Shown here piece after piece: positions 3,096 to 4,035 of a DNA stretch of 64,000 bases (position 1 is its first letter; each line of letters opens with the position of its first letter). The position numbers and the translations under genes were made by a program. The notes beneath the pieces were generated by a model. That model searched no databases and was not told the origin of the DNA. It saw only the letters and a program-made list of their open reading frames with translations. Source of the DNA: Holophagaceae bacterium. Its GTDB lineage: Bacteria > Acidobacteriota > Holophagae > Holophagales > Holophagaceae. The stretch is from positions 20,096 to 84,095 of the forward strand of contig JANYAS010000119.1 of NCBI GenBank assembly GCA_025361205.1, read 5' to 3'.

Positions 3096-3124
3096 ACTTT
3101 GAAATCATAAAATGATTTCAAAGT
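3096..3124. promoter_or_regulatory. 13-bp perfect palindrome ACTTTGAAATCAT-AAA-ATGATTTCAAAGT, candidate TA autoregulatory operator
   Basis: Perfect inverted repeat ending 8 bp before the antitoxin ATG (3133). Confidence 0.75.
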
Positions 3125-3132
3125 GAGGCACC

Positions 3133-3405
3133 ATGTTCATCACCACCCTCCGACTCGACGACGACCTGGGCCGCTTCCTGCGCGAGGTGGCGGAGGCCCA
3201 TGCCATGAGTGTGAACGGCTGGCTGGCTGAACTGCTGCGGCGCGAGCAGGCCACCGCAGCCCGGCGGAGGCTGGCCGCTGACTGGGCGGCCTATGGAAAG
3301 GATAATGAGGCCCAGTCGGTGGCCTACGCCTTCGAGGCCCAAGCCGAGGTGGCGGCGGAGCCCCAGCAGCGGGGCTACCGGGCCCGGAAGGCGAAGAGCT
3401 CATAA
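3133..3405 (+). CDS. ribbon-helix-helix-like antitoxin
   Basis: MFITTLRLDDDLGRFLREVAEAHAMSVNGWLAELLRREQA...; RHH-like N-terminus; upstream of MazF-like gene. Confidence 0.75.
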   Translation: MFITTLRLDDDLGRFLREVAEAHAMSVNGWLAELLRREQATAARRRLAADWAAYGKDNEAQSVAYAFEAQAEVAAEPQQRGYRARKAKSS

Positions 3406-3657
3406 CAAAACCCGACGAGGCCGCGATGAAGCCAGGCAGGATGCACTGTAAGGAAGGGCCCGCAGGGCGATGCGGGACATCGTTCAAGGGGCCTGACGCT
3501 GCGGGGCGCCTGCCTAGCTTCATCCCTCCGGGCGAGGGGTGGCGGGCGTCGCGATGTTTCGTCAGGCTCGTTTCGCGTAGTACCCGCTACGCTGCCACTC
3601 GCCCTCCTCGCCTCGCTCGCCCGGCCCCCCTCGCGCGGCCACGTGGGGTTCTGTTAT
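3402..3657. mobile_element. MITE-like structured element between antitoxin and toxin
   Basis: Terminal inverted repeats ATAACAAAACCCGACGAGGCCGCG / rc ATAACAGAACCCCACGTGGCCGCG (21/24); flanked by GAGCTC at 3396-3401 and 3658-3663; internal inverted repeats 3425-3440/3509-3524 (15/16) and GCCTGACG/CGTCAGGC. Confidence 0.7.
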
Positions 3658-3666
3658 GAGCTCTAA

Positions 3667-4035
3667 GTGAGTCGCACAAGCGAGGCGCTCCCTCGGTGCA
3701 GTCGGGGCGAGATCTGGCTACTGGACTGGAACCCCCGCCGGGGCTCAGAACAAGGAGGCTTCCGGCCGGGGCTGATCATCCAATCGGATCTGGGCAATCA
3801 TGCGGAGGGCGCCCGCACGACCATGTTGGTACCCCTCACCACCCAGGGGCGGCCCTATGCGTTCTACCTTCCGATCCCGAAGGGGAAGGGAAACGGCTTG
3901 CCGGTGGATTCCTGGGCCAACGCGACCCAGGTCTTCACAGTGGACAAGTCCCGACTCACGAAGCGCCTCGGCAGGGCGACTTCGGCCCAGATGAAGGCCT
4001 TGGCCGCAGCTCTGACAGCTGTTCTGGACCTCTAG
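3667..4035 (+). CDS. MazF/PemK-type endoribonuclease toxin
   Basis: ...SRGEIWLLDWNPRRGSEQGGFRPGLIIQSD...TTMLVPLTT...GLPVDSWANATQVFTVDKSRLTKRLG; GTG start. Confidence 0.85.
   Translation: MSRTSEALPRCSRGEIWLLDWNPRRGSEQGGFRPGLIIQSDLGNHAEGARTTMLVPLTTQGRPYAFYLPIPKGKGNGLPVDSWANATQVFTVDKSRLTKRLGRATSAQMKALAAALTAVLDL

Follow-up and report, generated by a model that had tools for sequence, protein, structure and literature searches.

A mobile MITE with a conserved fold at the antitoxin-toxin junction of a MazF-type operon in Holophagaceae

Results and Discussion

The toxin-antitoxin locus

Why should the two genes of a toxin-antitoxin operon, whose stop and start codons overlap in related bacteria, be held apart here by a long non-coding segment? 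The locus lies in a 64,000-nt stretch of the genome of a Geothrix-like member of the Holophagaceae, hereafter the window, which starts at C176:20096. The intact downstream gene (3667..4035, + strand; 122 aa) begins with GTG at 3667, and its product is, on the evidence of a whole-length PemK/MazF family match, a MazF-type toxin (PF02452, E 7.2e-29, profile positions 2-109 of 109), with a match to the NCBIfam MazF model (3.7e-9) that falls under the cut-off of that model. The 90-aa ORF upstream of it (3133..3405, +), with last codons AAG AGC TCA TAA, gave no match in Pfam or NCBIfam and is named as the putative antitoxin from its position and orthology. A palindrome, ACTTTGAAATCAT/ATGATTTCAAAGT, with 13-nt arms that are 100% complementary, lies upstream of the antitoxin at 3096..3124 and overlaps the −10-like hexamer TAAAAT; most orthologous loci have TTTGAAATCATAAAATGATTTCAAAG or close forms of it 5' of the antitoxin gene, and the palindrome is likely to be the autoregulatory operator of the module. 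The arrangement resembles that of MazEF/PemIK operons in having a PF02452 toxin 3' of a small partner and, in relatives, a stop/start overlap, but differs from them in the element between the two genes and in an antitoxin outside the named families.

Limits of the element and target duplication

The segment between the genes is a non-coding element of 268 bp (3396..3663, +) that begins with GAG and ends with CTC, as defined by its inverted arms, its multicopy nature and the comparison of copies; a 77-aa ORF inside it has no Pfam match. Two inverted arms of 31 nt (3395-3425 and 3634-3664), 90% complementary to each other, include the left terminal inverted repeat, which is also the 5' side of the basal stem (3396..3425, +), and the right terminal inverted repeat, which forms its 3' side (3634..3663, +). 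The sequence-only reading had described an element of about 256 bp at 3402-3657, flanked by GAGCTC (3396-3401 and 3658-3663) that could be either a target duplication or the tip of the repeat. Its inverted-repeat ends were correctly recognised, but its limits have to be moved outwards to 3396-3663, since among 112 copies compared the ends are set in the main at GAG...CTC and the length is mostly 268-270 bp. GAGCTC is accordingly the tip of the inverted repeat, and its use as a target duplication is ruled out because the tips vary among copies and TNA lies outside them. An integron attC site, suggested by a GTTAGGC-like tip, was set aside on the same variation of the tips.

The target duplication of the family is, judging from the compared copies, a 3-bp TNA outside the tips: in 46 of the 112 copies both flanking triplets are TNA, in 29 they are an identical TNA, and in 68 the two triplets differ by at most one base. 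The window copy is flanked by GAA on the left (3393..3395), one mismatch from TNA and presumably an altered copy of the duplication, and by TAA on the right (3664..3666). By heuristic gene calls, the stop codon of a neighbouring gene abuts the element exactly in 31 of the 112 copies, and 82 of the 101 gene 3' ends that adjoin an element are within 30 bp of it. Since TAA and TGA are themselves TNA targets, insertions of this kind rebuild a stop codon. In the window the antitoxin ORF ends within the left end of the element, whose sequence contributes both the stop (TAA, 3403-3405), as the earlier reading had held, and two C-terminal Ser residues.

Empty orthologous sites and dispersed copies

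A further 19 genomes of the genus have MazF orthologues, and the spacer is absent from 18 of the 18 orthologous loci whose antitoxin could be aligned. The antitoxin of these orthologues ends ...RKAK* or similar, with 15 orthologues documenting such a stop, and its TGA shares bases with the toxin start codon in an ATGA or GTGA, which bears out the proposals that the element occupies a coupled antitoxin stop/toxin start and that empty sites would be found in orthologous loci. One locus (L060) has the same junction DNA, with the antitoxin frame shifted there, and another (L072) reads GCTAAATGA, with TAA at the position matching the insertion point. The empty site had been predicted to encode ...AKSSK*; this was wrong, because removal of 3396-3666 from the window locus leaves GCGAAGTGAGTCGC, that is, ...AK* with GTGA.

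The expectation of multiple copies was also borne out, by about 20 further related places in the window's own genome, many of them at contig ends as expected for repeats, and by matches in 44 of the 47 genomes that make up the genus set (Geothrix/Holophagaceae, own genome included). Named records that carry a conserved 25-mer of the element are nearly all from Geothrix or Holophagaceae, a few being labelled only Acidobacteria, and viral contigs held no exact match to this 25-mer. One record is a 2-kb contig (L221, 1968 bp) in a MAG labelled Bacteroidetes; it carries the core motif described below and is probably mis-binned. With orthologues that lack the spacer, many copies, and an insertion sequence (IS) with matching ends in a related genome, neither outcome named in advance as refuting the earlier reading was observed, and 3396-3663 is a real MITE.

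A candidate transposase

A MITE is normally taken to be the deleted relic of one IS. The ends of the MITE are common to an autonomous transposon, an IS of 869 bp in genome G023 of the same genus, with TTA/TTA flanks and ends GAACGGCTAACAAAACCC and GAGTGCCTAACAATACTACC, whose transposase is encoded in two frames with DUF4096 and DDE_Tnp_1 domains, the second part matching the IS5 family of NCBIfam. Damaged relatives with similar ends occur in G022 and G031, and G066, a genome of another genus, contains a further relative with GAAGTGGTAACAAAACCCC and TTA/TTA flanks. The MITE resembles such IS5-family elements (transpos_IS5_3 type, DUF4096 + DDE_Tnp_1) in its ends, GA(G/A)nnnCTAACAAAACC, and in a TTA/TAA duplication as in the G023 IS, and differs from them in lacking a transposase and in its interior sequence. 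Only the ends align with these ISs, the interior being unrelated, and an origin of the interior from a deleted IS5 element was therefore rejected, the alignment being limited to the ends. The DUF4096 ISs of G030, G025 and G034 were rejected as drivers, as their ends differ (GGGCCTGTT and similar). In the incomplete assembly of the own genome no intact transposase of the IS5 type, and none with DUF4096, was found. The IS5-type transposase of G023 is predicted to move elements with TAACAAAACCC ends in trans.

Probable consequences for the operon

A motif resembling GGAAGG is situated a few bases 5' of the overlapping toxin start in the orthologues. The corresponding Shine-Dalgarno-like GGAAGG of the window (3386..3391, +) has been displaced and is now about 275 nt upstream of the GTG at 3667; the hairpin formed by the element ends 3 nt 5' of this GTG, and the TAA at 3664-3666 is an in-frame stop directly before it. 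Apart from the two residues added to the antitoxin, both genes are intact. The predicted unpairedness around the toxin start is 0.25 as against 0.17-0.57 in the orthologues, and because this accessibility is within the orthologue range, structure by itself gives no proof of a block, and loss of the motif and of the overlap is the clearer consequence.

We consider it very probable that, on the lineage leading to the own genome, a TNA target within the final antitoxin codons of a MazF-type operon received a non-autonomous MITE of the IS5 type, moved in trans by an IS5-type transposase now undetected in that genome, with a presumed effect on toxin synthesis. Sequence comparison demonstrates what this reading builds on, namely membership of a family, empty orthologous loci, IS5-like ends with their duplication, and a conserved fold; the GAA on the left flank, the absence of a transposase from the own genome, the unrelated interior of the ISs and an accessibility within the orthologue range count against it. 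In the mRNA, a hairpin of about 270 nt would deprive the toxin of its Shine-Dalgarno motif and of the stop/start overlap, so that toxin synthesis would either fall or come to require that the hairpin be opened at its 5' base by the ribosome that translates the antitoxin. Such opening of the stem may occur as the ribosome terminates at 3403-3405, and some coupling would then be kept. That the insertion silences or rewires the toxin, as first proposed, is plausible.

Permanent silencing, with the module on its way to a pseudo-operon and the element without a role of its own, has a less than even chance of being correct. The displacement of the motif by about 275 nt, the stop directly before the GTG and the hairpin 3 nt upstream all point that way, whereas the intact ORFs do not, and nor do the pN/pS values of the own genes against relatives (0.27 for the antitoxin and 0.22 for the toxin), which are not above those among the other genomes (0.26 and 0.28, respectively), although a recent insertion would leave no trace in such values either way. 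By these measures both genes look constrained. The locus offers a natural experiment in translational coupling, since the same kind of gene pair overlaps in the relatives and is separated by a 270-nt hairpin in the window.

Fold and covariation

The window element folds with a predicted energy of -166 kcal/mol (z = -9 versus shuffles). The consensus fold derived from 71 aligned copies is a three-way junction in which a basal stem formed from the two ends carries two arms: arm II, the conserved structured core (3422..3528, +; match to model R1 at G000:C176:23517-23623, E 3.3e-22), and arm III (3529..3633, +, limits approximate). In the consensus alignment 97.6% of cells pair, compared with only 39-44% in a control in which the partners were slid by 1-3 columns, and compensatory changes on both sides are present in 42 of the 85 pairs. 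Doubly changed cells number 400 versus 115 in shuffles, none of 500 shuffles reaching 400, in counts drawn from related copies whose events are not independent. Ten pairs of copies that share a site were also compared, pairs that overlap in membership and in which conversion from other copies may have replaced some. The four more diverged pairs have 4-8 kept double changes each, and over all ten pairs base pairing is kept by 41 one-sided changes and broken by 25 changes. In three genomes, copies at a single orthologous site (L006, L046 and L148) carry compensatory differences in their stems, as if the fold had been maintained after insertion.

In 83 of 110 copies the better fold is that of the given strand and not of its complement, and nearly every copy retains four G-U pairs on the given strand. 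G-U cells number 109 versus 66 A-C cells, an excess that is not significant per pair. Copies between tandem genes are co-directional with them in 43 cases and opposite in 19 (p = 0.003, the copies being related). These strand and orientation data lean towards a role as RNA, short of proof. A search of Rfam gave no match to the element at the gathering score or at E up to 1, and intrinsic terminators within it were represented only by pattern hits of doubtful value.

The main rival to an RNA role is that the covariation is unselected, having arisen by template switching or gene conversion between the arms, with the fold a by-product of the palindrome. Template switching and conversion between arms are a known mutational mechanism for imperfect palindromes, and the terminal repeats have in any case to match for the transposase. 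Correction to a perfect palindrome would, on the other hand, remove the four kept G-U pairs, and the excess of kept over broken pairing at shared sites (41 versus 25) and the better folding of the given strand likewise argue against this explanation; none of the three observations is decisive, and we regard it as rather unlikely. Far weaker is the suggestion that the spacer is an immobile regulatory RNA native to the operon, such as an attenuator or processing site, which the stable conserved fold and the position between two genes might favour and which is refuted by its absence from every orthologous locus and by the relatives at unrelated places, with target duplications, in the own and other genomes.

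One core with many ends

Searches for the core with a covariance model built on arm II detected it in 9 of the 18 genera of the class sample, all nine in the window's own family, and in 0 of 16 genomes of two other families. In the own genome (L358, L359, L363-L366 and L369) and six others (L383-L412) the core is found with at least ten kinds of terminal repeats. These are GAGnnCnTAACAAAACCC (TNA), GAGCCTGTCCCAAAACC, GAGCGTGTCCAAGTAA (CTAG), GGGCTCGTTAAACAATAACC, GAGTGTGTTTCAGAATT, GGAGCTGGAACGGAATAA (TAA), GAGCTTATCCGTAAATTATT, GAGGGCGTCTGCTAAATCCC, GAGCCTGTTTCTGAATCC and GGTCCGTTCAGAAATAAACTTG, for which only one end was seen clearly, and others. Ends of the type GTCCAAGTAA with a CTAG duplication match an IS1182-family IS in G025 (L191, ends GAGCCTGTCCAAGTAA, CTAG on both sides), a likeness that holds for the core-bearing loci L363, L390 and L394 and not for the window copy. 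Ends of the type TAACAAAACC have a TNA duplication and match an IS5-family IS, and GAGCCTGCCGCACAACC ends resemble those of another IS1182-family IS, in G023 (L208).

In a tree of arm II the TAACAAAACC and GTCCAAG end classes each occur in more than one place. As the support is modest on 107 columns, an exchange of ends among core-bearing elements is favoured and not proven. The different ends could instead be the product of old drift from a single ancestral end, and for the most part the end classes do group on the same modestly supported tree. Such drift, which we think improbable, accords poorly with the match of GTCCAAGTAA/CTAG ends to an IS1182-family IS and of TAACAAAACC/TNA ends to an IS5-family IS, and with the occurrence of both end classes in more than one part of the tree. 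Under exchange, the folded core would be the unit maintained across the family and combined with different transposon ends. We tentatively go further and suggest, with less than even confidence, that the core may be a selfish unit of Holophagaceae, either structured RNA or folded DNA, whose fold is preserved along with, in most copies, an element size of about 270 bp. By exchanging its ends it would gain the use of at least two families of transposase (IS5/TNA and IS1182/CTAG), and a function in the host transcript would be the reason why the fold persists once the element has inserted. With one folded core joined to several unrelated types of end, the question whether a non-coding parasite can switch from one transposase to another becomes open to test.

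In three core loci the arm II model also picks up the second arm, read from the opposite strand (L394:1607-1715(-), L363:1606-1712(-) and L369:1394-1501(+)), so that the element in several core lineages has the look of a single hairpin unit present as an inverted dimer.

Comparison with known elements

The Correia elements of Neisseria are short repeats without coding sequence that have inverted ends and occur in many copies near genes, and in transcripts they are cut by RNase III at the terminal repeats (PMC10969869). The present element is likewise short and non-coding, with inverted ends and many copies beside genes, but differs in its IS5-like ends with TNA and in its covarying three-way-junction interior; no link to Correia elements was found by sequence or in Rfam. 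The ERIC elements of Enterobacteriaceae are imperfect palindromes located within or close to intergenic sites that are transcribed, and their insertion at gene 3' ends can change the level of mRNA (PMC10969869). The element shares with them the imperfect palindrome and the setting in or near transcribed intergenic sites, and is unlike them in size, sequence, host range and target, with 31 of 112 copies abutting a stop codon exactly. Insertion of a MITE in an operon is an already known phenomenon. What is new is the wider family, in which one covarying core is associated with apparently interchangeable ends tied to two transposase families; text searches of the literature found no published account of it.

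Two longer copies, L009 (433 bp) and L020 (472 bp), contain extra small palindromic segments in their arms, as if the elements were modular. At G003:C1:1273021-1275116 a coding segment is bracketed by two copies (L035 and L146) in opposite orientation, separated by about 1.6 kb, which possibly form a composite arrangement.
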